A stretch of DNA of 32,994 nucleotides from Chloroflexota bacterium (GTDB taxonomy: Bacteria > Chloroflexota > Dehalococcoidia > Lucifugimonadales > GCA-2712585). The notes beneath the pieces were generated by a model. The model was not told where the DNA came from. It made no database searches and saw only the letters and a list, made by a program, of their open reading frames with translations. The stretch covers positions 1-32,994 of the forward strand of contig JAPULR010000168.1 in NCBI GenBank assembly GCA_027294635.1. The letters are read 5' to 3'. Shown here in pieces: positions 12,671 through 26,810 of this stretch. Within the stretch, counting starts at the first letter, position 1, and each line of letters opens with the position of its first letter. The position numbers and the translations under genes were made by a program.

Positions 12671-12721
12671 TCCATGCATCGTGTAACGATGTATCCCTCG
12701 GACGGTGCTCCAGAGGGCAAG

Positions 12722-13801
12722 ATGCCAAAGGTCAAAGGCCTTCCAGCCGCACAATTCACCGGGACTCGGCCTAAACTGCCCGATCTGTTTACGCGTTACA
12801 GCGAACAGGTCCAGGCTGAGTTCTGCTCTATCCTGCCCAACGGAAGCATGGAGCTGTCTGACCCCTTCCGCTATCACCTGGGTTGGGCCGACGAGTCGGG
12901 AGAGCGCCTGACGGTTCCCCAGGGTCAGGGAAAGGCCCTCAGATCGGCCCTCTGTCTCTTCGCCTGTCAAGCGCTGGACGGTGACTGGATGCAGGCAGTA
13001 CCTGCGGCCACGGCATTGGAGCTCACTCATAACTTCTCACTCATCCACGACGATATTCAGGATGGCGATACGGAGCGACGTCACAGGCCCACAGTATGGC
13101 GACTGTGGGGCCAGCCCAAGGCCCTGCTGGTGGGCGACGCCATGCATGCGATGGCCTACCAGGTAGCCCTCGACCTGGTGGAGCGAGGCGTGTCGGAGTC
13201 AAAGGCCCTGCGCAGCTCTCGCCTGTTGGTAGAGAGTTGCCTTTCCATGATAAAGGGGCAGTCATTAGATCTGGAATTTGAGGACACCCTCAACATCGGC
13301 CTGGCAGACTACCTGGAGATGATTCGCCTGAAGACGGGAGCCCTCTTCACCTGCAGCCTGGAGATAGGAGCCCTCCTGGCTAGTGACGAGGCGCAGCACG
13401 TCCAGGCCTTCGCGCGGTACGGTAACCACCTGGGTCGGGTGTTCCAGATTAGAGACGACGTGCTGGGCATCTGGGGCAATGAGGAGTACACCGGAAAGGC
13501 GTCGGGCAACGACATCCGGCGTAGGAAAAAGTCCTTCCCGATAGTGCTGGCCCTGGAACAGGCCAGGGGTGCTGACCGCGACCAACTGGTCGCCGTGTAT
13601 CAGAAGGAATCCCTTGTCGAGGCGGACGTAGACCGAGTGTTGGAGGTCCTGGACACGGTGGGGGCGCAAGACCACGCTCACGACCTAATCACTAAGGAAG
13701 CTTCTCTGGCCCTGAGGGAGCTAGAAAACGCACCCCTCTCAAAGTGGGCTAGAAGCGAAGCTGAAAGCCTGGTAGACTTCCTCGTCTCCAGAGAATATTA
13801 G
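12722..13801 (+). CDS. Polyprenyl diphosphate synthase (probable FPP/GGPP synthase)
   Basis: This trans-prenyltransferase makes the allylic diphosphate feeding squalene synthesis. The first Asp-rich motif is HDDIQDGD (Asp110, 111, 114) and the second is IRDDVLGIWG (Asp245, 246), the DDxxG form common in this subgroup. A Phe five residues before the first motif (FSLIHDD) suggests a short product such as farnesyl or geranylgeranyl diphosphate. FPP is what HpnC/HpnD need. The ORF track starts at 12674, but that ATG sits at the predicted transcription start. ATG 12722 has GAGG 5 nt upstream and gives 359 aa beginning MPKVKGLP, so it is preferred. The extra 16 residues of the longer form look unconserved. 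It is the first gene of the hopanoid operon. Confidence 0.9.
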   Translation: MPKVKGLPAAQFTGTRPKLPDLFTRYSEQVQAEFCSILPNGSMELSDPFRYHLGWADESGERLTVPQGQGKALRSALCLFACQALDGDWMQAVPAATALELTHNFSLIHDDIQDGDTERRHRPTVWRLWGQPKALLVGDAMHAMAYQVALDLVERGVSESKALRSSRLLVESCLSMIKGQSLDLEFEDTLNIGLADYLEMIRLKTGALFTCSLEIGALLASDEAQHVQAFARYGNHLGRVFQIRDDVLGIWGNEEYTGKASGNDIRRRKKSFPIVLALEQARGADRDQLVAVYQKESLVEADVDRVLEVLDTVGAQDHAHDLITKEASLALRELENAPLSKWARSEAESLVDFLVSREY

Positions 13802-13816
13802 AAAGGGAACAGCTTA

Positions 13817-14908
13817 GTGGCCACAGCAACAGAAGTAGCAGCGTCACCTCAGAAGGATACTGTGCGGGTCAAGCCGACCCAAAGGCCAATGGAGATGTCC
13901 CTCCGTCTGGCCAAATACATGCTGGTGCAGAAGCTAAAGGGTCGAAGGCGGTTTCCCATGGTTACCATGTTGGAGCCGCTGGAGATGTGCAACCTCTCCT
14001 GTGTCGGCTGCGGCCGCATCAGGGAGTACAAGGCGATGATGAGCAAGATGATGCCGGTGCAGGAGGCTCTGGCCGCGGTGGAGGAATCCGGGGCGCCCAT
14101 CGTCTCCATCGCTGGCGGCGAGCCCACCATCCACCCCCAGATCGACGAAATCATCAACGAGCTGGTTCGCCGCAAGTACTTCGTCTACTGCTGCTCCAAC
14201 GGCCTTCTCATGGAGCGGGTCATGAAGAAGATCAAGCCTTCCAAATACTTCTGCTGGGTGGTCCACATGGACGGCATGGAGGAGAAGCACGACGAGTCGG
14301 TGGACCGTCAGGGGGTTTTCAAGAAGGCCAAAGTCGCCATCCAGAGCGCCCTGGATCAAGGATACCGGGTATGCACCAACACCACCATTTTCCGCAGCAG
14401 CGACGTGGAGGACCTCCATGAGCTGTTCCGCACCATGACGGATATGGGCGTGGAGGGCTGCATGGTATCACCAGGGTTCGACTACCAAACTGTGAGTGAC
14501 CAGGAGCAGTTTCTCAAAAGGGAAGAGTCCAAAGAAGCTTTCAGGAAAATCCTTGATCCGGAAAAGACCGAGGGGATCAGGTTTTATAACAACCCCCTGT
14601 ATCTCAACTTCCTCCGGGGGGAAAGGGACTACCAGTGCACCGCGTGGTCCAACCCCACCTATACCGTCATGGGCTGGAGGATGCCCTGCTACCCCCTGGC
14701 CGACGAGCACGTTGAAAAGGTCAGCCAGGTGTTGAAGAAGGAGGTGTGGGAGAAGTACGGCGTGGGCAAGGACCCACGCTGCGCCAACTGCATGATGCAC
14801 TGCGGCTTTGAGTCAGCCACCATCTTCGGCGCCGTCACCAAACCCAAGGACTGGGTTACCCTGATTAAATCCGGCGCCATCAGCAAAAGCGGGATAACCG
14901 CAAGCTAG
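13817..14908 (+). CDS. hpnH: HpnH, radical SAM adenosylhopane synthase
   Basis: HpnH adds the 5'-deoxyadenosyl group of SAM to the hopene double bond, forming adenosylhopane, the first step of side-chain extension. The radical SAM cluster motif is CNLSCVGC (Cys58, 62, 65), continuing GRIREY as in known HpnH proteins. SIAGGEPTIHP near residue 95 is the SAM-binding GGEP motif. The C-terminal region has a further Cys pair, CANCMMHCGFE, typical of the DUF3463 domain. At 363 aa it is slightly longer than usual because of an N-terminal extension. GTG 13817 is used. It lies 15 nt after the prenyl synthase and 8 nt before hpnG. It needs a 4Fe-4S cluster, possibly provided by the suf operon downstream. 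Confidence 0.95.
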   Translation: MATATEVAASPQKDTVRVKPTQRPMEMSLRLAKYMLVQKLKGRRRFPMVTMLEPLEMCNLSCVGCGRIREYKAMMSKMMPVQEALAAVEESGAPIVSIAGGEPTIHPQIDEIINELVRRKYFVYCCSNGLLMERVMKKIKPSKYFCWVVHMDGMEEKHDESVDRQGVFKKAKVAIQSALDQGYRVCTNTTIFRSSDVEDLHELFRTMTDMGVEGCMVSPGFDYQTVSDQEQFLKREESKEAFRKILDPEKTEGIRFYNNPLYLNFLRGERDYQCTAWSNPTYTVMGWRMPCYPLADEHVEKVSQVLKKEVWEKYGVGKDPRCANCMMHCGFESATIFGAVTKPKDWVTLIKSGAISKSGITAS

Positions 14909-14916
14909 AGGTATCG

Positions 14917-15633
14917 TTGATAGCCATAGTTGCAGCAATGAAGGACGAGGTCGCCCGACTGGGAGGCCTGAGCCGACGTTCCAAGGGTAGGGCTCAGGTA
15001 ACGGTAACGGGAGTGGGCAAAGACAAGGTAGTAGCCACCATGGAGACCCTCCTCCAAGGGAAGCCCTATCCCAGCCTGGTACTGTCCCTGGGCTTCGCTG
15101 GAGCCCTGTCCGATGACCTGAACACCGGCGACTTGATCCTGGCACGCAACCTCTACCTGGTGGAAAGCGATGGGGTGTTGGAAGTGGACAACCGTTACTA
15201 CCAGCTGGCGGAGCGGGCCATAAACGAGAACGTGCTGCCTTACGTGCGCCGCGACACCCTTACCGTGCCTAACATTGTCCGCACCCAGGCTGAAAGGGAA
15301 CGCTTAGCCCAGACCTACAATGCTCAGGCGGTAAACATGGAGGACTACTGGGTGTGCTCCGCCGCGGCCAGGGCAGGGGTGCCCTTCCTGTCGGTGAGGG
15401 CGGTGCTGGATATGACCCATCAGGAGCTCCCACAATGGGTTGAAGAGATCATGTGGCAGAGGGAGAGAAGGCAGGGCTTAAGGATTCTCCTTAGCTCCCT
15501 GGCTCGGCCCACCAGGATTCCCAAGCTGTTGTCCCTGGCCAGAGGGGTCAAAAGAGCCCAGAAAAGCCTGGGTGAATTCGTCAGGTCTTTTGTGGCGAAA
15601 GCTATTGAAGGAGGCGTCTGTAGCCCAGCGTAA
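14917..15633 (+). CDS. hpnG: HpnG, adenosylhopane nucleosidase/phosphorylase
   Basis: This nucleoside-phosphorylase-fold protein removes adenine from adenosylhopane to give ribosylhopane. Visible motifs are LSLGFAGALSDDL near residue 57 (substrate loop), VNMEDYW at 139-145 with the ribose-binding Met141 and Glu142, and VRAVLDM with the catalytic Asp165. The 238 aa include a C-terminal helical extension (PTRIPKLLSLARGVKRA) seen in hopanoid-associated members. The start is TTG 14917 with AGAGG 5 nt upstream. It follows hpnH by 8 nt, the usual pairing. The release of adenine and a ribosyl product is relevant to the sugar genes later in this operon. Confidence 0.9.
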   Translation: MIAIVAAMKDEVARLGGLSRRSKGRAQVTVTGVGKDKVVATMETLLQGKPYPSLVLSLGFAGALSDDLNTGDLILARNLYLVESDGVLEVDNRYYQLAERAINENVLPYVRRDTLTVPNIVRTQAERERLAQTYNAQAVNMEDYWVCSAAARAGVPFLSVRAVLDMTHQELPQWVEEIMWQRERRQGLRILLSSLARPTRIPKLLSLARGVKRAQKSLGEFVRSFVAKAIEGGVCSPA

Positions 15634-15648: not shown

Positions 15649-16632
15649 TTGAAAGTTCTGGTCACGGGGGCAACGGGATTTATTGGGGGGAACCTGGTGC
15701 GGGCCCTAAAGGCCAGGGGATACGATGTCAGGGCCCTGGTTAGAGACCAAAGCAGTACCTTAACACTGGAGAATACGGGGGTAGAAGTGGTACCGGGGGA
15801 CGTGCGGGACCGGGAGTCGGTGGCCCGGGCGCTGGAGGGGTGCCAGGCGGTGTTCCACTGCGCCGCGCTGTACACCTTTTGGAGCCTGGAGCCTCGAGAG
15901 GTGTACCAGGTTAACGTGGAGGGCACCAAGACGGTCTTTGAAGAGGCGCTAAAGTCAGGAGTTGAGGGAGTCGTATATACCAGCACCGTCTCCACCATCG
16001 GAATTCCCAAGAAAGGCGTGGGGACAGAGGAGATGGAGCCCTCGCCGCGGGATCTGATAGGCCACTATAAACGATCCAAGTACCAGGGAGAGAAGGAGGC
16101 CTTGAGAGCGGCGTCTAAGGGGCTGCCGGTGGTGGTGGTGAATCCCACGGCTCCCGTGGGGCCCTGGGACGTAAAGCCCACTCCCACGGGGGGAATCGTC
16201 CTGGACTTCCTAAGAGGAAGGATACCCGCCTACGTCAACACGGGTATGAACATGGTGGATGTGGAGGACGTAGCCACGGGTCATATCCTGGCTTTAGAGA
16301 AAGGACAGCCGGGCCAGAGATACATCTTGGGCAACCGAAACATGACTCTTAAGGAGCTCCTCAGAACCCTGGAGAGCATAACCGGAAAGAAGGGCCCACG
16401 GCTGAGGGTACCCATCAACCTGGTTGTAGCTTTGGGAATAATTGACCAGCTGATTGAGGGAAAACTTCTGAGAAGAAGGCCTCGGATACCCCTGGAGGGC
16501 ATGCGAGTAGCTCGCAAGCCCATGTACGTAAGCAGCGCCAAGGCGGTCCGGGAATTGGGGCTGCCCCAGAGCCCGGTAGAAGGGGCACTGGAAAAAGCGG
16601 TACGGTGGTTCAGGGACAACGGCCGGGTATGA
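15649..16632 (+). CDS. hpnA: HpnA, hopanoid-associated NAD-dependent epimerase/dehydratase (SDR)
   Basis: This extended short-chain dehydrogenase is 327 aa. The NAD-binding motif GATGFIG is at residues 7-13, and the catalytic Tyr140 and Lys144 (HYKRSK) are in place. NPTAPVGPWDVKPTPTG and the ending KAVRWFRDNG match HpnA proteins, which are regularly encoded in hopanoid clusters. Its exact reaction is unproven; sugar-like side-chain modification is the usual suggestion. It starts at TTG 15649 with a poor ribosome site, 15 nt after hpnG. The next gene is the cyclase. Confidence 0.9.
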   Translation: MKVLVTGATGFIGGNLVRALKARGYDVRALVRDQSSTLTLENTGVEVVPGDVRDRESVARALEGCQAVFHCAALYTFWSLEPREVYQVNVEGTKTVFEEALKSGVEGVVYTSTVSTIGIPKKGVGTEEMEPSPRDLIGHYKRSKYQGEKEALRAASKGLPVVVVNPTAPVGPWDVKPTPTGGIVLDFLRGRIPAYVNTGMNMVDVEDVATGHILALEKGQPGQRYILGNRNMTLKELLRTLESITGKKGPRLRVPINLVVALGIIDQLIEGKLLRRRPRIPLEGMRVARKPMYVSSAKAVRELGLPQSPVEGALEKAVRWFRDNGRV

Positions 16633-16664: not shown

Positions 16665-18662
16665 ATGGCAAGAGTAGCAGATAGAATAACTGAACAGTTA
16701 AGGGCCAGAGTGGAAAACACCATCCACAAGGCCCAGAGATACATGCTGAGCATCCAGCATGAAGACGGCTTCTGGTGGGGAGAGCTGGAGTCCAACCCCA
16801 CCATGGAGGCCGAGTACCTCATGCTCACCCACATCCTGGGGGTGGAGGACAAGGAACGCTGGCGGAAGATAGTCAACTACATCTCGGGTCGCCAGCAAGA
16901 GGACGGCTCGTGGGCCCAGTACTACGAAGCCCCCGGCAACCTAAGCACCTCAGTGGAGTGCTACACCGCCCTAAAGCTGGCGGGAGTGTCGACGGACTCG
17001 GACTCCATGATAAAGGCCAGGGAGTTCATCCTTTCCAGAGGCGGGGTGCCAGAGGTCCGCATCTTTACCAAGATCTGGCTGGCCCTCTTAGGCCAGTACG
17101 ATTGGAAGGGCGTGCCAGCCATGCCCCCGGAGCTTATATTCCTGCCCACCTGGTTCCCCTTCAACATCTACGAGTTTTCCAGTTGGGCCAGAGCAACTAT
17201 TGTCCCCATGACTATCATACTGACAGAAAAGCCGGTAAAGGCAGTTCCTGACTGGGCATCCATTGACGAGCTATACCCGGTGCCCCGGGAAAAGGTGGAC
17301 TTCTCGATGCCCCGTCCCAAGCCCATACGTAGCTGGCGCAGCTTTTTCTACGGGGCAGACCGGCTTCTACGCTTCTACGAGAAGGCGCCCATCAAGCCCG
17401 GCCGGTCCTGGGCTAAACAGATGGCGGCCCAGTGGATCATCTCTCGCCAGGAGGCTGACGGCTCGTGGGGAGGTATTCAGCCACCCTGGGTCTACTCCCT
17501 CATCGCCCTCAACCACCTGGGCTATCCCGTGGACCATCCCGCAATGAAAACAGGGCTCCAGGGGTTCGAGAGCTTTGCCATCGAGGACGGCGACACCTGG
17601 CGAGTCCAGGCGTGTGTTTCACCGGTCTGGGACACCTGCCTGGCCCTCATCGGCATGCTGGAATCCGGGGTACCCTCAGACGACTCCGCTATGCAGGACA
17701 GCACTCGGTGGCTCCTGGAGAAGCAGATCCTTCACGGCGGGGACTGGCAGGTGAAAGCCCCCGACACGCCACCCGGTGGTTGGGCTTTCGAGTTCGCCAA
17801 CAACAACTACCCGGATATAGATGACGTGGCAGAGGTCCTCATCGCCCTGAACATGGCTCGCCTACCCGGCGAGGAAGACCACCGGCGTACGGAGGCCATT
17901 GAAAGAGGCGTCTCCTGGCTCCTGGGCGTCCAGAGCAAGAACGGCGGCTGGGCCGCCTTTGATAAGGACAATGACCACACCTATTTGAGCAACATACCCT
18001 TTGCCGACTTCGGCGAGTCCCTGGACCCCGCCAGCGTAGACGTTACAGCTCACGTGGTGGAGGCCCTGGGGAAGCTGGGTTACGACCAAACCTTCGAACC
18101 CATTGCCAACGCCTTCAGATACATTCGAGATGAGCAGGAAGAGGACGGCCCCTGGTTTGGCCGATGGGGAGTTAACTATATCTACGGTACCGGTGCGGTC
18201 CTGCCGGCCCTGGAAGCCATTGGAGAGGACATGGACCAGCCCTACATAAGGAGGGCGGTCGACTGGATAAAAGCCCACCAGAACGCCGACGGCGGATGGG
18301 GGGAGAGCTGTGGTTCCTACGTAGACCCGTCTCTGCGGGGCGTTGGGCCCAGCACCGCCTCCCAGACGGCCTGGGCACTCTTGGCCCTTATGGCGGCGGG
18401 AGAGGGGGATTATCCAGCAACCCTGCGAGGAATTGAGTACCTGTGGCGGACCCAGCAGGTGGACGGCTCCTGGGACGAACCCTACTTCACGGGGACCGGC
18501 TTTCCCGGCTACGGAGTGGGGCAGCGGCCGAAGAAGATGCCAAGCCCTGGGGACCCGGCGTACCAGGACCTGGATATGGGTGCCGGATTTATGATCAATT
18601 ACTACCTTTACAGAAACTACTGGCCCTTGACGGCCCTGGGAAGATTCAAAAGGAATATTTAA
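16665..18662 (+). CDS. shc: Squalene-hopene cyclase (HpnF/Shc)
   Basis: This enzyme cyclises squalene to hopene/hopanol in one cationic cascade and is attached to the membrane monotopically. It is 665 aa, normal for the family. The catalytic acid motif DIDD is at residues 384-387 (DxDD). Several QW repeats are visible: QEDGSWAQYY near 78, QEADGSWGG near 262, QSKNGGWAAFD near 425, QNADGGWGE near 540 and QVDGSWDEPY near 602. These are followed by the GTGFPG segment that lines the substrate channel. The DxDD motif rules out oxidosqualene cyclase (DCTAE). The start is ATG 16665. The neighbours hpnC/D/E make its substrate, and hpnH/G extend its product. Confidence 0.97.
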   Translation: MARVADRITEQLRARVENTIHKAQRYMLSIQHEDGFWWGELESNPTMEAEYLMLTHILGVEDKERWRKIVNYISGRQQEDGSWAQYYEAPGNLSTSVECYTALKLAGVSTDSDSMIKAREFILSRGGVPEVRIFTKIWLALLGQYDWKGVPAMPPELIFLPTWFPFNIYEFSSWARATIVPMTIILTEKPVKAVPDWASIDELYPVPREKVDFSMPRPKPIRSWRSFFYGADRLLRFYEKAPIKPGRSWAKQMAAQWIISRQEADGSWGGIQPPWVYSLIALNHLGYPVDHPAMKTGLQGFESFAIEDGDTWRVQACVSPVWDTCLALIGMLESGVPSDDSAMQDSTRWLLEKQILHGGDWQVKAPDTPPGGWAFEFANNNYPDIDDVAEVLIALNMARLPGEEDHRRTEAIERGVSWLLGVQSKNGGWAAFDKDNDHTYLSNIPFADFGESLDPASVDVTAHVVEALGKLGYDQTFEPIANAFRYIRDEQEEDGPWFGRWGVNYIYGTGAVLPALEAIGEDMDQPYIRRAVDWIKAHQNADGGWGESCGSYVDPSLRGVGPSTASQTAWALLALMAAGEGDYPATLRGIEYLWRTQQVDGSWDEPYFTGTGFPGYGVGQRPKKMPSPGDPAYQDLDMGAGFMINYYLYRNYWPLTALGRFKRNI

Positions 18663-18673
18663 GGTGGGGGAGT

Positions 18674-19180
18674 ATGAGGAAGCTGGAAATTAGACCACTA
18701 GAGGATCTTCAGGAAATCTCCGTAGTCGAGGCGAAGATGAAGTGCCGCGTCTTCTGCCTCCGCATCGAGACCCAAAAGGCCCCCGAGTTCATTGACATCA
18801 CCGAGAGGGTTCGGCAATGCGTGTCCGAGTCTATGATCAGGAACGGCAGCGTAACCATCTTCTCCCGCCACACCACGGCTGCCATTAAGATCAACGAGAA
18901 CGAGCCCCTGCTCCTTCAAGATATGGAGAAGTTTCTGGAGCGAATATCACCCAGGAACGGCAGCTATATGCATAACGACTTCACTATCCGGACAGTCAAC
19001 ATGACCGAGGACGAATGCCCCAACGGCCATGCTCACTGCCAGCAGTTGTTACTAAGCACCAGCGAGTGTATACCTATCATCGACGGCATAGTTCAGATCG
19101 GACGATGGCAAAGCGTATTCGTCATCGAACTGGACCGCCCACGTCTCCGGGAGGTCTTAGTCCAGGTTATGGGAGGGTAG
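18674..19180 (+). CDS. YjbQ/UPF0047 family protein (thiamine-phosphate-synthase-like)
   Basis: This 168-aa protein has the UPF0047 hallmarks FSRHTTAAIKINENEP (residues 63-78), NGHAHCQQLLL and the ending WQSVFVIELDRPR. The conserved histidines of the family are intact. Members of this family have shown weak thiamin-phosphate synthase activity, but the physiological role is unclear. The ORF track begins at 18443, inside shc in another frame. ATG 18674, preceded by AGGTGGGGG, fits the family length. It sits 11 nt after shc and 6 nt before hpnC, so it is firmly inside the hopanoid operon. That is not a standard location and may mean a metal- or phosphate-linked helper role. Confidence 0.88.
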   Translation: MRKLEIRPLEDLQEISVVEAKMKCRVFCLRIETQKAPEFIDITERVRQCVSESMIRNGSVTIFSRHTTAAIKINENEPLLLQDMEKFLERISPRNGSYMHNDFTIRTVNMTEDECPNGHAHCQQLLLSTSECIPIIDGIVQIGRWQSVFVIELDRPRLREVLVQVMGG

Positions 19181-19186
19181 CAAACC

Positions 19187-20080
19187 TTGAGCTCCCTCCT
19201 CACCTCAGATGCTCGAGTCTGGAGCCTCGAGGAGGCCTTCGAGTACTGCCGCCGCCTCACCACAACCCACTACGAGAATTTCACCGTCGGATCCCTCCTG
19301 CTGCCCAAGGCCAAGCGCCAGCACGTCTCCAATCTCTACTCCTACGCCCGCTCGGTGGACGATCTAGGCGATGAAGCTGAGGGAAATCGAGAGGATTTGC
19401 TGAAGGAGTGGGAAGAGGATCTGGACCTCTGCTACGAAGGGACTCCCCACCACCCGGTTATGGTGGCCCTACAGGAAACTGTCCGCACCTTCGACATTCC
19501 AAAGGAGCCTTTCCTCAAGCTCATAAAAGCCAACCGCATGGACCAGGAGGTCAAGCGGTTCCCCACCTTCCAGGACCTGCTCCGCTACTGCGACCACTCG
19601 GCAAACCCCTGCGGCCGCCTCTTCCTCTACGTCTTCAACTACCGCGATCAGGAGCGGCAAAGGCTTGCCGACTACACCTGTACCGCTCTACAGCTAGCCA
19701 ACTTCTGGCAGGACGTGACCCGGGACTACAAAATGGGCCGCATCTACCTGCCTCTAGAGGACCTGGAGCAGTTCGGCTATAAGGAGGAGGACCTGGCCCA
19801 GGGCATATTCAATGATAGTTTTCGCCGTCTCATGGTCTTCGAGGTTGATAGGACCCGGCGGATGTTCCGACAAGGACTGGAACTGGTTGACCAGGTGAAG
19901 GGCGTTGCACGACTGGACATCGCCCTCTTTAGCCGCGGCGGTCTTGCTGTGCTAGATGCCATTGAGAAGCAAGACTATAATGTCCTGAACCGCAGGCCTC
20001 ACCTTTCGCGATTTCAGAAGGGCTGGCTCCTATTCTCAACGTGGGTTGGCATGCGACTGGGACGGAAGCCCCGCGCCTAG
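19187..20080 (+). CDS. hpnC: HpnC, hydroxysqualene synthase
   Basis: This squalene/phytoene-synthase-family protein (297 aa) hydrolyses presqualene diphosphate to hydroxysqualene in the HpnCDE route. The first Asp-rich motif is SVDDLGDE (Asp58, 59, 62). The second region, ANFWQDVTRDYKMGRIYLP (171-189), carries Asp176 and Asp180. The 'NFWQD' form is typical of HpnC, compared with 'NILRD' in HpnD. The start is TTG 19187, 6 nt after the YjbQ gene. It is followed directly by hpnD. Confidence 0.93.
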   Translation: MSSLLTSDARVWSLEEAFEYCRRLTTTHYENFTVGSLLLPKAKRQHVSNLYSYARSVDDLGDEAEGNREDLLKEWEEDLDLCYEGTPHHPVMVALQETVRTFDIPKEPFLKLIKANRMDQEVKRFPTFQDLLRYCDHSANPCGRLFLYVFNYRDQERQRLADYTCTALQLANFWQDVTRDYKMGRIYLPLEDLEQFGYKEEDLAQGIFNDSFRRLMVFEVDRTRRMFRQGLELVDQVKGVARLDIALFSRGGLAVLDAIEKQDYNVLNRRPHLSRFQKGWLLFSTWVGMRLGRKPRA

Positions 20081-20115
20081 CCTCGCCTTCAGCAAGACAG
20101 TTAGAGGAGCGTACA

Positions 20116-20991
20116 ATGCTCCAGCTAAAAGATGCTTACGAAGAGTGCAGGCTCATCACCAAAAGAGAAGCCAAGAACTTCTTCTACGCTTTTATTACCC
20201 TGCCTTCACAAAAGAGAAGGGCTATCTACGCCGCTTACGCCTTCTGCCGCCATTGTGATGACGCCGTAGACCTGGATATACCCCGAAAGAGCAAGCTAGA
20301 AGCGCTGTCAAGTCTACGAAACCAGCTGGAGGCTGCCTACCGGGACAGGCCCCAAGGGGCGGTATTCACTGCCCTGGCCCACTCCGCCCAGACCTACGGC
20401 ATCCCGGAGGAGTATTTCCAGGACGTAATAAGCGGTGTGGAAATGGACCTGACTAAGAACCGCTACGAGACTTTCGACGAGCTTCGTCTATACTGCTACC
20501 GGGTGGCCTCGGTAGTGGGACTGATATGCCTGGAGATATTTGGATACAAAGACGCCAAAGCCAAGAAGCACGCCATAGACCTGGGCTTGGCCATGCAGCT
20601 CACCAATATCCTTCGGGACATCCAGGAAGATCTGAATCGGGACCGCATCTACCTCCCTCAACAGGAGATGGAGCAATACGGATATTCGGAGGAGGACCTT
20701 CGGATTGGTGTTCGAAACGATGCCCAAAGACGTCTCATGGCATTTCAAGTGCAGCGGGCCCGGGATTACTTCCAGGAGGGCGTCAAACTTCTGCCCTACC
20801 TGTCACCTCGCTCAAGGGCCTGTCCCGCGGTCCTGGCCCAGCTGTACGTACACATCCTAGACCGCATTAAAGGGAATGATTTCAATGTATTTAATGGTAG
20901 AATTAGCCTCAGCGGCAGGGAAAAGGTGCTGGTTACGGCAACAACATGGCTGAAGAGCTTCCTACCCCACCCCCAACCAAATCCCACGTAG
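20116..20991 (+). CDS. hpnD: HpnD, presqualene diphosphate synthase
   Basis: HpnD condenses two farnesyl diphosphates head-to-head to presqualene diphosphate. It is 291 aa from ATG 20116, which has AGAGGAG 6 nt upstream. The ORF track start at 20041 lies inside hpnC and is not used. Motifs are CRHCDDAVD (Asp48, 49, 52) and QLTNILRDIQEDLNRDRIYLP (161-181), the standard pattern of the enzyme. The C-terminus overlaps the start of hpnE by 46 nt in another frame, so the last residues (FLPHPQPNPT) may be a shifted, non-conserved tail. Confidence 0.94.
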   Translation: MLQLKDAYEECRLITKREAKNFFYAFITLPSQKRRAIYAAYAFCRHCDDAVDLDIPRKSKLEALSSLRNQLEAAYRDRPQGAVFTALAHSAQTYGIPEEYFQDVISGVEMDLTKNRYETFDELRLYCYRVASVVGLICLEIFGYKDAKAKKHAIDLGLAMQLTNILRDIQEDLNRDRIYLPQQEMEQYGYSEEDLRIGVRNDAQRRLMAFQVQRARDYFQEGVKLLPYLSPRSRACPAVLAQLYVHILDRIKGNDFNVFNGRISLSGREKVLVTATTWLKSFLPHPQPNPT

Positions 20992-22322
20992 TTGTCCTGG
21001 GCGGAGGCCTTGCAGGCATGGCCGCCGCCTGCAACCTATTGGATGCAGGCCGCCAGGTAACCCTAATCGAAAAGCGGCCCTACCTTGGGGGCCGTGCCTT
21101 CTCCTTTACCGACCGGGAAACGGGGCAGGAAGTAGACAACGGCCAGCACATATTCCTGGGCTGCTGCACCTACTACATCGACTTTCTAAAAAAGCTGGGT
21201 ACCTTCCGGCAGGCCCACCTGCAGTCGAAAATGCTGGTAAAAGTCCTCAGTCCGGGCCACATAGCCGGGCAACTATCTACGGCGCCGCTGCCAAAGCCCC
21301 TCCATCTACTGCCCTCCTTCCTGACCTACAGGCACCTGGGATTGAAAGACAAGGCCCTGGCCCTCTATGCTCTCACTCGTATCGCATTGACCAACCGGAG
21401 CAATCCAGCCCTCTCCACGGAAACCTTTGGCCACTGGCTTAAGAAACACCACCAGACCCAGCGTTCCATTGACAACTTCTGGAATATCATCGTAAAGCCC
21501 TGCGTCAATGACGACGTAAGCAACGTTACCGCCGCCATGGCCATGATGGTATTCCAAGAGGGGATGATGAAAACCCGACACGGCTCCTCCATCGGCTACT
21601 CTAAGGTAGGCCTTTCAGCCCTCATGGGCCAGGCCGCCCAAGAGTACATCCAACGCTATGGAGGTCAATTGATCACGGGCAGGGCCGTTTTGGCCCTACA
21701 GGCTGATAACAGCGGGATTAAAGGAGTGGAGTTGGCTGGCGGCGAAACTATCCGTGGAGACGTATATATCAGCGCCCTCCCCTTTGATGACCTGGCGCCC
21801 CTCCTGCCCCCGGAGCTCGAAAGGGCGCCTTATTTTGCTTCCTTGCGAGGGCTGGCAACCGCGCCCATCGTAAACATCCACCTCTGGTACAACAAGCAGA
21901 TAATGCACGAGGACTTCGCCGCCTTTGTAGACTCGCCCCTCCAGTGGGTCTTTAACAAGAGCAGCATCCTTGGCCAGAACGGTGCAGGGGGCCAGTATAT
22001 AACCATCTCTCTCAGCGGAGCCTTTGAATACATCAATCAGCCAAAGGAGGTCCTACAGCAGACTTTTGTAGAGGCCATGGCCCAGGCCTTCCCTAAGGCC
22101 AAGTTGGCCAAGGTTGAGCGGATTCTGGTGGTCAAGCAGGAAAAGGCCACCTTCCGCTGCTTGCCCGGTTCTGAGAGGCTCCGACCCAAAGCGGAAACGC
22201 CCATTGAAAACCTGTTCTTGGCTGGCGAGTGGACCGACACCGGATGGCCTTCCACCATGGAGAGCGCCGTTAGAAGCGGTGTTGCGGCGGCGCAGGCGGT
22301 GGTGAGCAGGTCTAACGGTTGA
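20946..22322 (+). CDS. hpnE: HpnE, squalene-forming FAD-dependent desaturase/reductase
   Basis: This is a flavin amine-oxidase-type protein, 458 aa, that reduces hydroxysqualene to squalene. The N-terminal dinucleotide fold is VVVLGGGLAGMAAACNLL (residues 15-32), followed by IEKRPYLGGRAFSF. The FAD-anchoring C-terminus is LFLAGEWTDTGWPSTMESAVRSG. The ATG at 20946 lies inside hpnD; no better in-frame start before the FAD motif is visible. With hpnC and hpnD it completes the FPP-to-squalene branch. The stop overlaps the next gene by 4 nt (TTGA), which extends the operon into the sugar-type genes. Confidence 0.93.
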   Translation: MAEELPTPPPTKSHVVVLGGGLAGMAAACNLLDAGRQVTLIEKRPYLGGRAFSFTDRETGQEVDNGQHIFLGCCTYYIDFLKKLGTFRQAHLQSKMLVKVLSPGHIAGQLSTAPLPKPLHLLPSFLTYRHLGLKDKALALYALTRIALTNRSNPALSTETFGHWLKKHHQTQRSIDNFWNIIVKPCVNDDVSNVTAAMAMMVFQEGMMKTRHGSSIGYSKVGLSALMGQAAQEYIQRYGGQLITGRAVLALQADNSGIKGVELAGGETIRGDVYISALPFDDLAPLLPPELERAPYFASLRGLATAPIVNIHLWYNKQIMHEDFAAFVDSPLQWVFNKSSILGQNGAGGQYITISLSGAFEYINQPKEVLQQTFVEAMAQAFPKAKLAKVERILVVKQEKATFRCLPGSERLRPKAETPIENLFLAGEWTDTGWPSTMESAVRSGVAAAQAVVSRSNG

Positions 22323-23317
22323 AGGCCCTTGTCCTAGCCCCCTTCTCATGCCACGCTCTGGAATCTCTGAGGCGATTAATGCCCCTCGACTATGAGAGCT
22401 GGACACACACCAGGAAGCTTTACGACCCAGAGGAGCTGGGGCAACGGATGAAAAAAGAGGGCACCACTATTCTGGTTGTAGAAGCCGATTTCATATTCGA
22501 GGAGGTCTTTCAGCAAGCCAAGGATTTAGGGTTCCTGGGAGTTTGTCGTAGCAGCCTGAACCATGTAGACCTGGATGCCGCCACCCGTCATGACGTGCTG
22601 GTAGTCAACACCCCCTGGCGAAACGCCCGAGCCGTAGCTGAGCTTGCCGTCGCTCTGATGCTGTCGCTGGCGCGCCGGGTCCCTCGCCTCGACAGTTATG
22701 TAAAGGAGGGTTACTGGCAAGACCCCGTGGAGGGTTACATCTCCTACCGGGGGATCGAGCTTCAGGGCAGCACCTTGGGCCTCGTTGGACTGGGAGGCGT
22801 GGGTCGCATTGTATCCAAGCTGGGGAGGGCCCTGGGTATGGAGGTCCTGGCTTACGACCCCTACGTCGGTCAGCTTGGACAACGAAAGTCTGGCTCCCTG
22901 CTGGTCACTCTAGACCGGGTGCTGGAAGAGTCACGGTTCCTCTCTCTACACACACCCTTCTCTGCCGAGACTATGGGCCTCATAGGTGAGAGGGAGTTGG
23001 GTATGATGAGAAAAGGAGCCTATCTAATCAACACCGCCTTCTATGGCCTGGTAGACGAACCGGCTCTGGTCAAACACCTGAGCTCAGGGCACCTGGCAGG
23101 GGCAGCCCTGGACGTTCACGATGCCCATCCCATTCCCCCCTCCAGCCCCTTGCTCAAGCTGAGTAACGTGATACTAACGCCCCATATTGGCGGCGCCACC
23201 GTGGAGACGATAGACCGCCATTCGACCATGATGCTGCAAGACATAAAGAGATACCTCCACGGAGCGAAACCGCGCCACCTGGCAAACCCCAAGGCATGGA
23301 CGGGTCGTGGGCATTAA
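22319..23317 (+). CDS. YoaD-like D-2-hydroxyacid dehydrogenase homologue with altered active site
   Basis: This 332-aa protein is of the D-isomer 2-hydroxyacid dehydrogenase fold. The NAD-binding motif GLGGVG is at residues 157-162, followed by the acidic Asp180 of the second strand (AYDPY). The catalytic triad is broken: the Arg of the usual 'NTARG' is Phe241 (NTAFYG), and the Glu before Pro in 'DVFExEP' is His270 (DVHDAHP). His289 (TPHIGG) remains. It may be a non-redox NAD(H)-binding protein or use other chemistry. B. subtilis YoaD pairs with the kinase YoaC in the S-box (SAM-regulated) yoaDCB operon, and here too a kinase follows. The TTG start overlaps hpnE by 4 nt, and the end overlaps the kinase by 11 nt. 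Confidence 0.82.
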   Translation: MKALVLAPFSCHALESLRRLMPLDYESWTHTRKLYDPEELGQRMKKEGTTILVVEADFIFEEVFQQAKDLGFLGVCRSSLNHVDLDAATRHDVLVVNTPWRNARAVAELAVALMLSLARRVPRLDSYVKEGYWQDPVEGYISYRGIELQGSTLGLVGLGGVGRIVSKLGRALGMEVLAYDPYVGQLGQRKSGSLLVTLDRVLEESRFLSLHTPFSAETMGLIGERELGMMRKGAYLINTAFYGLVDEPALVKHLSSGHLAGAALDVHDAHPIPPSSPLLKLSNVILTPHIGGATVETIDRHSTMMLQDIKRYLHGAKPRHLANPKAWTGRGH

Positions 23318-24815
23318 CCTGCTAGCCCTGGATGTGGGGACCAGCGGAGTCCATTGCATGGTTACGGACGGCGAGGGTACCCCTCTCGCCACTAAAGATG
23401 GTCCCATCCGCTACTTCACGCCGAAGGGCGCCTCGGAGCTGACGCTGGAGTTCGATCCCCATGAGTTGCTGGATATGGTCGGCACCCTGGTTATCGAAGC
23501 TTTGAAGGAAGCCGGCATAACGGGTGGAGACATCAAAGCCGTGGGCGTTACAAGCCAGCGGCAGGGTGTTGTTTTCGTGGACCGGGAAGGCAAAGAGCTC
23601 CTGGTGAGTCCAAACATCGACCTGAGAGCGGTCTTTGAAGGCGCTGCCCTGGATGAGGAGGTGGGCCCGGACCTCTATCGAATCACCGGCCACTACCCAT
23701 CACTGCTGCTGGCCCCCAGCCGTCTCCGCTGGCTGCAGAATAACCAACCCGCCGCATACGAACGGCTGGACCGTCTTTTAACCATTGCCGGATGGCTGGC
23801 CTTTCGGCTCACAGGCAGTTTTGCCTGTGAGCCTTCCCTGGCTGCAGGAGCGGGCCTGCTGGAGGTGGACACGGGAAAACGATGCAGCGCCCTGCTGAAG
23901 AAAATGGGTGTCCCTGAGTCGCTGCTGCCACCCCTTATAAAGGCTGGAGATGTGGTAGGAGAGCTTCTGTCACAGCCGGCCGGTGGCTGGGGACTGCGAC
24001 CCGGGACGCCGGTCACTCTGGGCGGGGCCGATACTCAGTGCGGCCTCCTGGGAATGGGCCTCGTCGCCTCCGGCGAGACGGGCATTGTGGCAGGTTGGAG
24101 CTGTGCCGTTCAAATGCTTACGTCCACCCCATGCTATGATGACGGCATGAACGCCTGGGTCGGCTGCATTCCGCTGGAAGATTTGTGGGTATCGGAAGCT
24201 AATTTGGGGGACGCTGGTAATGCCCATCGCTGGTTGAAGGACACCCTCATAGGGAACGGCGGGTCCTGGGAGAAAGCCGATATTTTGGCCTCCTCGGTCC
24301 CCCTCGGTAGCGACGGTGTGTTTTCCTATCTGGGAACCAGCCCAATGAGCGCGGCAAAGGCAGGACTCAAAAGGGGGGGCATCCTCTTCCCCACGCCCAT
24401 GCGATATCAGAAGCCCAGACCCGGTCACATGCTAAAGGCCTTCTGGGAGAGCTTGGCCTACAGCCTGAAGTCAAACTTGGGCGCCATCGAGCAAGTAACC
24501 GGAAAGGATGCGGAGGTCCTTTATCTGGGGGGAGGCATGGCCCGGAGTGAGCTCATGTCACGCGTTACGGCCAACGTCCTCAACCGGGAGATCAGGCGCA
24601 GCAACCTTCCCCAGGTGAGCGCGCGAGGCGCGGCGGTGGCTGCGGCTGTAGCGGCAGGCGTGTACGACGGGATAAGTACGGGCGTCCGTTCTCTGGCCCC
24701 AACGTGGGAAATCGTGGAACCAAACCCCACCGCCGCTCTGGAGTATCGGGAGCATTACCAACAGTGGAAAAGTCTATACCACAGGCTTCAGGACGGTGAG
24801 AGTGGCATCCAGTAG
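23307..24815 (+). CDS. FGGY-family carbohydrate kinase (YoaC/xylulokinase-like)
   Basis: This 502-aa sugar kinase has an ATPase-like fold in two halves. The N-terminal phosphate-binding motif LALDVGTSGVHC is at residues 6-17, VGVTSQRQGVVF is near 79, and the catalytic Asp242 sits in GGADTQCGLLG. The C-terminal half has the adenine-side motif LYLGGGMARSELM near 412. The length is normal for the family. FGGY enzymes phosphorylate C3-C7 sugars and polyols, and the substrate is not deducible here. Upstream is a YoaD-like protein and downstream a class II aldolase, both overlapping this gene. The three look like a kinase-aldolase-dehydrogenase route for a small sugar. No isomerase or transporter is present. 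Confidence 0.9.
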   Translation: MGINLLALDVGTSGVHCMVTDGEGTPLATKDGPIRYFTPKGASELTLEFDPHELLDMVGTLVIEALKEAGITGGDIKAVGVTSQRQGVVFVDREGKELLVSPNIDLRAVFEGAALDEEVGPDLYRITGHYPSLLLAPSRLRWLQNNQPAAYERLDRLLTIAGWLAFRLTGSFACEPSLAAGAGLLEVDTGKRCSALLKKMGVPESLLPPLIKAGDVVGELLSQPAGGWGLRPGTPVTLGGADTQCGLLGMGLVASGETGIVAGWSCAVQMLTSTPCYDDGMNAWVGCIPLEDLWVSEANLGDAGNAHRWLKDTLIGNGGSWEKADILASSVPLGSDGVFSYLGTSPMSAAKAGLKRGGILFPTPMRYQKPRPGHMLKAFWESLAYSLKSNLGAIEQVTGKDAEVLYLGGGMARSELMSRVTANVLNREIRRSNLPQVSARGAAVAAAVAAGVYDGISTGVRSLAPTWEIVEPNPTAALEYREHYQQWKSLYHRLQDGESGIQ

Positions 24816-25497
24816 ATGGGAAAAGGAGCGTGAGACCCTGTGCCAGGTTTGCCGTCGCCTGGTCAAGACGGGTCTGGTGGTAGGGTCCAGCGGTAACGTT
24901 AGTATGAGGCTGAAGACCAACGATGACGACCTGGTGCTCATCACCCCCATGGGACTGGCTCTGGAAGGGCTGAATCCCCATGAACTGGCGGTTATCGACC
25001 TGGAGGGAGAGCCGGTGGAGGAGGACCTACCCCCCTCATCCGAGTCGGCCCTGCATCTGATGGTCTACCGTCGTCGCCCCGACGTAGGGAGTGTAGTCCA
25101 CGCTCACCCTGTTTTTTCATCCGTGGCGGCGGTTTCAGGACGGGAGATACCTCCTATAGTAGACGAGGTGGTCATCAAGATCGGCGGTAGCGTGCAAGTG
25201 GCTGAGTACGCCTTTCCAGGCACGGAGGAGCTAGCCGAGAAAGCCGTTGACGCTTTGGGGGACCGAATGGCAGTCCTCCTTAGGAACCACGGACTAATGA
25301 CTGTGGGAAAGTCGGCGGAGGAGGCCTTGGACAACAGCCTCCTGGTAGAGCGTCTGGCGCAGATATTTTTGTATACTACCCTCTCTAAAGGCGCCAATCC
25401 ATTGCCAGCGGAAGTCGTTAAAATAGAGGAAGAGCTGTACCGGATGCACCGGTCGGCGGAGAAAGCCAGCGGAGGACCCCATGGTATCGGTGCCTAG
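24796..25497 (+). CDS. Class II (zinc) aldolase, FucA/AraD family
   Basis: This 233-aa protein is related to L-fuculose-1-phosphate aldolase, ribulose-5-phosphate 4-epimerase and the 5-deoxyribulose-phosphate aldolase group. Zinc ligands His102 and His104 (VVHAHPVFS) and His165 (LRNHGLMTVG) are present, as is the catalytic Glu83 (SSESALHL). The phosphate-binding region GSSGNVSMR is at 30-38 and ITPMG at 49-53. It would cleave a ketose-1-phosphate to DHAP and an aldehyde. It overlaps the kinase by 20 nt and the next gene by 17 nt. The GTG at 24796 is used, with no strong ribosome site, consistent with coupled translation. Confidence 0.9.
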   Translation: MRVASSRWEKERETLCQVCRRLVKTGLVVGSSGNVSMRLKTNDDDLVLITPMGLALEGLNPHELAVIDLEGEPVEEDLPPSSESALHLMVYRRRPDVGSVVHAHPVFSSVAAVSGREIPPIVDEVVIKIGGSVQVAEYAFPGTEELAEKAVDALGDRMAVLLRNHGLMTVGKSAEEALDNSLLVERLAQIFLYTTLSKGANPLPAEVVKIEEELYRMHRSAEKASGGPHGIGA

Positions 25498-25852
25498 CTT
25501 CATCCTCCGACGGTTGTACGTTAAAGGCAGCTTGCTCAGCACTGATGCAGGGATGGAATTTCAGCTTCTAAACAGGCTGGGGTCCGGCTACGCCCGCCGT
25601 CTGCTGCCCCTGACCCTGGACGGCCACGACATCCCCCTGGACTGCTGCGAATTCCATGTGGACGGATCACGGGTCCCCTTTGCCAACATTTCCAGGGAGA
25701 ACACCTTTACCATAGCCCTGAACAAGTTGATCACGGTAACGGCCAAAGGCGTAACGCTAACCAAAGAGCCCCACAACATCGGTATGGCCTTTGAGGTGGC
25801 GGGCCTGGGCGTTCTTAAGTTCGACTTCACCGACACCCCTTCCGATGGTTAA
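25481..25852 (+). CDS. Small protein of unknown function, 123 aa
   Basis: I do not recognise this protein. It begins VPSFILRRLYVKGSLLSTDAGMEF, has alternating hydrophobic strands throughout, and ends LGVLKFDFTDTPSDG. There is no signal peptide, membrane segment or metal motif. A beta-rich single domain is likely. Its ATG lies 17 nt inside the aldolase gene, and its end overlaps the SDR gene by 8 nt, so it is co-translated with both. That argues for a real gene with a role tied to the kinase/aldolase module. It may be a binding or allosteric subunit, but this is only a guess from position. Confidence 0.65.
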   Translation: MVSVPSFILRRLYVKGSLLSTDAGMEFQLLNRLGSGYARRLLPLTLDGHDIPLDCCEFHVDGSRVPFANISRENTFTIALNKLITVTAKGVTLTKEPHNIGMAFEVAGLGVLKFDFTDTPSDG

Positions 25853-26810
25853 CGTAGCATCGGCCCCCGTTGTGGCCGTCACCGGCTCCGCGGGATACAT
25901 CGGTTCGCAGCTTCTCCAGGAGCTGGAAAACGAGACCTCCCTGGCGAAGCTAGTCGCCGTGGACCTTAAGCCTTTGACCATGCCCTTCCACAACATCGAC
26001 GCCTATCGCTTGGACATCACCAAACCCCTGGACACGGTGTTCCACGACCATCATATAAACACTGTAGTGCACCTAGCCTTCGACTTGCGAGAGGGTCACA
26101 ATCCCCAGGAGGCTCAAGCCATTCAGTCCAACAACCTCGTGGGGCTAGAGAACCTTTTGCGAGCGTGCCGGGCCGGCCGCGTTAGTAACTTCATCTACCT
26201 CAGCAGCCACACCGTTTATGGGGCTCGCTCAGACAACCCAGTCCCCATCACTGAAGAAGCGCCCCTTAGACCTGTGGTGCGGTTCCAATATTCCCAGACC
26301 AAGGTATTGAGCGAGGAGATTCTGCAGCGTTTTGCCCGGGAGAACCCCCAGACTGGCGTCACGGTGCTTCGGTGCTGCATGGTTCTCGGCCCAGAGGGCA
26401 TTAGCCACGTGGCCAAAGCCTTCCAAAAGCCAGTCTTAATTAAGGTTACTGGCTACGACCCACCCCTACAGTTCATCCACGATAAGGACCTGGCGCGTAT
26501 CCTGACTATCTTCAGCATGGAGCCCAGGCCCGGGGTTTTCAACGTGGCCGGCGAGAGTGTGGTGCGTTTCAGCCGTATGGCTCAGATCATGAGACAGAGG
26601 CTTATATCACTGCCATTCTTTATTGCGTATCCACTGGTCCAGATGAGCTGGAAGCTGGGCCTCCAAAAGGAGGCCTCCGCAGCGGGGCTGGGCTTTATCC
26701 GGCACCCCATAATCATGACCACGGGCAAACTCAAGCGAGCGACGGGGTACCGGTTCCAGTACACCGCCGAGGAGGCGGTAAGCTCCTACGCGGCATCAAA
26801 TTTGACCTAA
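25845..26810 (+). CDS. NAD-dependent epimerase/dehydratase (extended SDR), last gene of the operon
   Basis: This 321-aa extended short-chain dehydrogenase has the NAD motif TGSAGYIG at residues 13-20, the conserved LSSHTVYG near 119-126, and the catalytic Tyr149 and Lys153 (QYSQTK). It resembles UDP-glucose 4-epimerase-type proteins and is clearly distinct from HpnA earlier in the operon. The ORF track starts at 25791, but ATG 25845 places the NAD fold at the normal distance and overlaps the previous stop by only 8 nt. Substrate is unknown; a sugar attached to a hopanoid head group or a nucleotide sugar is possible. A 258-nt gap separates it from the suf operon. Confidence 0.85.
   Translation: MVNVASAPVVAVTGSAGYIGSQLLQELENETSLAKLVAVDLKPLTMPFHNIDAYRLDITKPLDTVFHDHHINTVVHLAFDLREGHNPQEAQAIQSNNLVGLENLLRACRAGRVSNFIYLSSHTVYGARSDNPVPITEEAPLRPVVRFQYSQTKVLSEEILQRFARENPQTGVTVLRCCMVLGPEGISHVAKAFQKPVLIKVTGYDPPLQFIHDKDLARILTIFSMEPRPGVFNVAGESVVRFSRMAQIMRQRLISLPFFIAYPLVQMSWKLGLQKEASAAGLGFIRHPIIMTTGKLKRATGYRFQYTAEEAVSSYAASNLT

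Follow-up and report, generated by a model that had tools for sequence, protein, structure and literature searches.

The analysed stretch, a 32,994-nt window from a Chloroflexota bacterium (contig C77 of a draft genome of 2.17 Mb, 84.5% complete), carries a hopanoid gene cluster that runs directly into five further genes: dh, kin, ald, unk and sdr. These encode a protein with a D-2-hydroxyacid-dehydrogenase fold and an altered active site, an FGGY carbohydrate kinase, a class II aldolase, a 123-aa beta-sandwich protein and an extended short-chain dehydrogenase/reductase (SDR) of the epimerase/dehydratase type. The five genes are a genuine unit beyond the genome of the window, and the link between this module and hopanoids is well supported. 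Its task would most likely be the modification or cutting of the hopanoid sugar tail, a step that belongs to no known pathway. As a tentative reading, possible rather than probable, the module may be a hopanoid-linked accessory of Chloroflexota that resembles the dihydroxyacetone phosphate (DHAP) shunt and acts on the ribose-derived C35 side chain.

The module genes lie on the + strand at 22319..23317 (dh), 23307..24815 (kin), 24796..25497 (ald), 25481..25852 (unk) and 25845..26810 (sdr). The preliminary description of the stretch had reported them as a chain of overlapping genes behind hpnE, and open reading frames, coordinates and strand were verified. The overlaps are 4 nt between hpnE (ending at 22322) and dh, 11 nt between dh and kin, 20 nt between kin and ald, 17 nt between ald and unk, and 8 nt between unk and sdr; these lengths rest on starts consistent with homologue alignments. 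For sdr this start is the ATG at 25845, the mechanical start of the reading frame at 25791 being too early. The suf genes follow sdr beyond a 258-nt gap. A pattern scan revealed no terminator-like site on the + strand between hpnE and dh, and promoter and terminator pattern scans gave sites no commoner than in shuffled sequence. Judging from this layout, the hpn genes and the five-gene module are likely to share one transcript.

With the small protein unk as the query, 85,462 genome species were scanned and 80 loci retained, all of them from Chloroflexota; the named matches place the group in the class Dehalococcoidia, including SAR202. Within 10 kb of the small protein, ald was present at 77 of the 80 loci, kin at 71, dh at 70 and sdr at 68, and the complete five-gene set was found in 52 of the 70 loci that span 12 kb or more. 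Most of 40 related loci followed the order FPPS-hpnH-hpnG-(hpnA)-shc-yjbQ-hpnC/D/E-dh-kin-ald-unk-sdr (FPPS, farnesyl diphosphate synthase; shc, squalene-hopene cyclase, SHC), with proteins 30-70% identical. Tight junctions were kept as well, with dh and kin no more than 30 nt apart in 33/38 relatives and unk and sdr in 31/36. Variants included a split cluster in genome G106 (dh with hpnE/hpnC/shc, and kin-ald-unk-sdr elsewhere; L150, L068) and four loci (L159, L160, L174, L232) in which an hpnG match was kept with the module, with no local shc or hpnH. The case against a hopanoid role named at the outset, modules found mainly apart from hopanoid genes and with another clear substrate, did not occur: squalene or hopanoid genes lay within 10 kb in 34 of the 51 loci having full flanks, and no other clear substrate came out of the comparison of module loci.

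Co-occurrence was evaluated over 147 genomes from the order of the window genome, with the kinase called at E ≤ 1e-60. SHC was present in 74 of the 147 genomes and the kinase in 58, with both in 54 (p = 1.9e-18). HpnH scored over its cut-off in 68 genomes, and the kinase was found in 51 of these (51/58 kinase-bearing genomes; p = 4e-17). The draft state of the genomes and their common descent put a limit on these figures, and the family-level count is the more conservative one: both genes in 18 families, the kinase only in 1, SHC only in 5 and neither in 17 (p = 3.6e-6). Kinase and SHC also covaried inside the variable families f1, f7, f18 and f30. In a different class (f71) the module is unlinked and the kinase more distant (27-33% identity), yet SHC was present in 18/18 carriers; f71 is a single clade and was weighed as one event. 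Conserved synteny, together with the joint presence of the kinase, SHC and HpnH across genomes of the order, supports the functional tie of the kinase-aldolase-dehydrogenase set to hopanoids that was proposed earlier from the window, and the check across genomes extended the SHC pairing to a second class. At one locus (L064, genome G077) SHC is truncated and interrupted by stops, and the hpn genes, dh and the kinase are still there. Two genomes without the module kinase encode divergent squalene/oxidosqualene-type cyclases that fall short of the SHC cut-off at 256-287 bits (G123:C15:10395-12236 and G143:C9:26810-28717).

The dh protein matched PF02826/PF00389, and its best structural match was phosphoglycerate dehydrogenase (PGDH; PDB 1wwk, E = 6.5e-54). 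Among 33 aligned homologues the catalytic Arg was absent in 33/33, the His was kept in 33/33, and the catalytic Glu had become His in 27/33 and other residues in the remainder; the catalytic Arg and the Glu-His pair of D-2-hydroxyacid dehydrogenases of the PGDH/YoaD type are thus not present in dh. A 2-hydroxy-carboxylate is an unlikely substrate, because the Arg is lost and the Glu is mostly His. The preliminary description had likened dh and kin to the Bacillus subtilis yoaDCB operon, described there as an S-box operon with a dehydrogenase beside an FGGY kinase. This argument found no support here: besides the missing Arg and Glu of dh, no S-box or other Rfam family was found at gathering score in the entire window, and the sole published function that we found for YoaDC is a guess, cysteine degradation with glycerate (PMC2885750).

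The nearest solved structure to kin (PF00370/PF02782) was the AI-2 kinase LsrK (PDB 5ya0, E = 2.7e-47). In ald (PF00596), the metal ligands H102, H104 and H165 and the catalytic E83 were kept in 32/32 homologues. Its best solved match was 6btd (E = 5.9e-31), with fuculose-phosphate aldolase (FucA) barely behind; 6btd is DrdA, a 5-deoxyribulose-1-phosphate aldolase according to the depositing paper (PMC6079011). The Ser-Tyr-Lys residues of sdr (PF01370; S121, Y149, K153) were intact in 30/30. An FGGY kinase followed by a class II aldolase that acts on a deoxyketose is also found in pathways of the L-fucose/L-rhamnose type, but the module has no isomerase, and no curated equivalog model reached its cut-off among the module proteins. 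The extended epimerase/dehydratase type of sdr, together with the strict coupling to hopanoid genes, would suit a synthetic direction, with the aldolase condensing DHAP and an aldehyde, and with kinase, SDR and dh making a polyol or sugar to be attached to hopanoids or used alongside them. However, neither a glycosyltransferase nor a nucleotidyltransferase could be recognised as a regular component of the clusters examined, and we consider synthesis unlikely.

The small protein unk, previously labelled unknown, could be assigned to PF25653 (E = 1.8e-18), with a distant match to PF19906. Its predicted structure was confident (pLDDT 90.9), and ranks 1-15 of the structural matches to the model were beta subunits of C-glycoside deglycosidases (CGDs), followed by fused CGDs (Foldseek E = 3.6e-6, TM 0.73). 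The Pfam name points to a part of HMG-CoA reductase. This assignment was rejected, the name stemming from fusions such as that at L107 and the stand-alone fold being that of a CGD beta subunit. In other Chloroflexota PF25653 is fused to the N-terminus of HMG-CoA reductase (L107:983-2572) or, C-terminally, to a GH2-like protein (L119:7625-10321), and on account of such fusions the CGD-beta-like fold seems to be reused as an accessory domain. The likeness to CGD alpha/beta complexes (DgpBC, AgCarB2-C2, Deinococcus aerius CGD) lies in this beta-subunit fold; a sugar-isomerase-like TIM-barrel alpha subunit, the partner in those complexes, was not seen in the module at the loci examined. The beta subunit of CGDs assists substrate binding (PMC12141560).

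In hopanoid synthesis HpnH yields adenosylhopane and HpnG removes its adenine; the enzyme that converts the resulting ribosylhopane to bacteriohopanetetrol (BHT) is unassigned (PMC12583986). As a 5-substituted 5-deoxyribose, ribosylhopane (5-hopanyl-5-deoxyribose) falls into the substrate class of the DHAP shunt, and it would be the substrate of the module. The two dehydrogenases dh and SDR, in either order, may reduce ribosylhopane to BHT and re-oxidise it at C34 to a ketose-like compound. The FGGY kinase would then phosphorylate the terminal hydroxyl, and the class II aldolase could cleave between C32 and C33, giving DHAP and a C32 hopanal. FucA/DrdA-type aldolases split ketose 1-phosphates having the configuration that D-ribose would give. 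The CGD-beta-like unk may assist in holding the large hopane moiety, a task that the beta subunit has for the aglycone in CGDs. Formation of a ketose by reduction and oxidation would make an aldose isomerase dispensable; an MtnA/DrdI isomerase was not seen in the module at the loci examined. The genome-wide absence of an MtnA-type isomerase in 15/58 kinase-bearing genomes would be expected if the ketose arose by redox; such an isomerase is present elsewhere in the window's own genome. In the DHAP shunt the aldehyde product varies with the substituent of the 5-deoxypentose (PMC12632272). As a further, more doubtful proposal, SAR202/Dehalococcoidia Chloroflexota may in this manner shorten the C35 side chain to C32 hopanal, which would then become the alcohol or acid, and recover DHAP.

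Several observations weigh against action on the hopanoid side chain. The match of ald to DrdA beats that to FucA only slightly, the usual alpha partner of a CGD beta subunit was not seen in the module at the loci examined, and we know of no enzyme of the set that accepts a C30 lipid substituent. In genome G008 the module lies beside DHDPS-, PIG-L- and MFS-type genes, with neither SHC nor HpnH. Genome G088 carries FPPS-hpnG-yjbQ-hpnCDE-kin-ald-unk, again without SHC or HpnH, and G433 has kin-ald-unk without SHC. In family f41, SHC was found in 10/13 genomes without the module kinase. Genome G016 lacks the kinase and has dh-ald-unk-sdr, with no substitute kinase seen adjoining the aldolase, and EamA/MFS transporter genes are inserted in some modules (f18, G026), which fits a soluble substrate. 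The kinase is also absent in G011, the incomplete genome G138 is a further exception to the pairing of kinase with SHC, and two f41 clusters retain only the aldolase, a nucleoside hydrolase and a gene that matches SDR weakly. Because of the exceptions in G008, G088, G433, G138 and f41, we regard the module as an accessory of hopanoid producers and not as a required part.

The transporter inserts and the G008 module with its MFS and DHDPS/PIG-L genes, as well as the unlinked modules in f71 and others, would also suit an operon for the catabolism of a soluble polyol or sugar acid that neighbours hopanoid genes through shared regulation or ancestry. Tetronate catabolism, for instance, pairs an SDR, a kinase and a class II aldolase/decarboxylase, with family scores here all below cut-off. 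However, co-occurrence with SHC holds even when the module is unlinked (18/18, f71) and within polymorphic families, and we consider such an operon unlikely.

Salvage of 5'-deoxyadenosine and 5-deoxyribose, the other role suggested in the preliminary description, is the main rival to side-chain processing. Here HpnH would at some rate turn over without product, HpnG or a nucleoside hydrolase would free 5-deoxyribose, and kinase and aldolase would convert this to DHAP and acetaldehyde; the radical SAM (S-adenosylmethionine) enzyme would thereby be freed from inhibition. The resemblance of ald to DrdA fits, a soluble substrate would account for the transporters in some modules and for the hopanoid-free G008, and an inosine-uridine-type nucleoside hydrolase is encoded near the module in 22/80 loci, in a subset directly 3' of sdr. 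However, the 73 relatives without SHC need radical SAM enzymes too, yet the kinase occurs in just 4 of these. Moreover, DrdK is of the MtnK type and requires an isomerase. Both are lacking in the module, and MtnA is missing in those same 15 of 58 genomes. Salvage leaves the two dehydrogenases, the CGD-beta-like protein and the hopanoid-specificity unexplained, and we consider it unlikely. Side-chain processing fits the hopanoid-specificity better than 5-deoxyribose recycling does, but in G008 and G088 module genes occur with neither SHC nor HpnH. Nucleoside hydrolase genes directly or nearly after sdr were found at L041:4111-4998, L042:4749-5639, L049:2850-3749 and L056:14136-15041. Clusters of the type with this gene mostly have one hpnC/D-like gene and no hpnA.

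Of the systems compared, drdAIK of Bacillus thuringiensis (PMC6079011) and the DHAP shunt (PMC10986504) share with the module a DrdA/FucA-type class II aldolase and a sugar kinase, a 5-substituted 5-deoxypentose as plausible substrate, and DHAP plus an aldehyde as plausible products. In contrast to these pathways, the module kinase is of the FGGY and not the MtnK/DrdK type, the MtnA/DrdI isomerase is lacking, and two dehydrogenases, a CGD-beta-like protein and the hopanoid linkage are added. A kinase or phosphorylase that forms an aldose 1-phosphate, as in drd, was not recognised: the kinase is FGGY, and the HpnG-like phosphorylase is present but divergent.

Upstream of the module on the + strand, the first gene of the hopanoid cluster (12674..13801) encodes a polyprenyl diphosphate synthase of the farnesyl diphosphate synthase type, supported by NCBIfam polyprenyl synthase matches and found in the same leading position in relatives; its top score, below cut-off, was to the model of a family 2 encapsulin cargo polyprenyl transferase. 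It is followed by hpnH, encoding the radical-SAM adenosylhopane synthase (13817..14908; TIGR03470, 430.6 bits, cut-off 225), a divergent hpnG-like nucleoside phosphorylase gene (14917..15633; TIGR03468, 113 bits, under the cut-off of 187), hpnA for a hopanoid-associated SDR epimerase (15649..16632; TIGR03466, 432 bits) and shc (16665..18662; TIGR01507, 795 bits). Then come a YjbQ/UPF0047 gene (18755..19180; PF01894, TIGR00149) and the squalene synthesis genes hpnC, hpnD and hpnE (19187..22322; TIGR03464, 323 bits; TIGR03465, 278.3 bits; TIGR03467, 410 bits). HpnC and HpnE scored over their own model cut-offs and HpnD at its cut-off (278.3 vs 278.6 bits). The YjbQ gene stands between shc and hpnC here and in most related hopanoid clusters, and we know of no role for YjbQ in hopanoid synthesis.

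Clustering of hpnH, hpnG, hpnA, shc and hpnCDE is shared with the hpnA-O clusters of Alphaproteobacteria (PMC12583986). The window differs in its divergent HpnG and inserted YjbQ, and that work does not count dh, kin, ald, unk or the SDR as hpn genes; its survey of alphaproteobacterial clusters found no additional candidate genes nearby.

Replacement of 1-deoxy-D-xylulose 5-phosphate (DXP) synthase in the supply of isoprenoid precursors was also considered as a function of the module, because canonical dxs is missing from most relatives. It was rejected, since kin and dxs showed no association (12/46/13/76, p = 0.37). DXP synthase (TIGR00204) scored over its cut-off in 24/147 relatives, dxr in 129/147 and HMG-CoA reductase in 0/147; in most members of the order the methylerythritol phosphate (MEP) pathway seems to be supplied without canonical dxs.

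A literature search on hopanoids with a class II aldolase and a kinase, with SAR202, and with Dehalococcoidia and SHC yielded nothing or unrelated papers, and no publication on this gene combination was found. Sugar cleavage of the DHAP-shunt type is known, and its hopanoid setting is new. No settled role exists for hpnA, hpnB or hpnL (PMC12583986), and the five genes conserved with hopanoid genes over many families are concrete, expressible candidates for side-chain enzymes; the two dehydrogenases could include the missing reductase from ribosylhopane to BHT. C32 hopanoids in sediments are usually attributed to the degradation of bacteriohopanepolyols. Should the proposed cleavage take place, an abundant marine and groundwater lineage would be a direct biological source of sedimentary C32 hopanoids, and the interpretation of these biomarkers would change.

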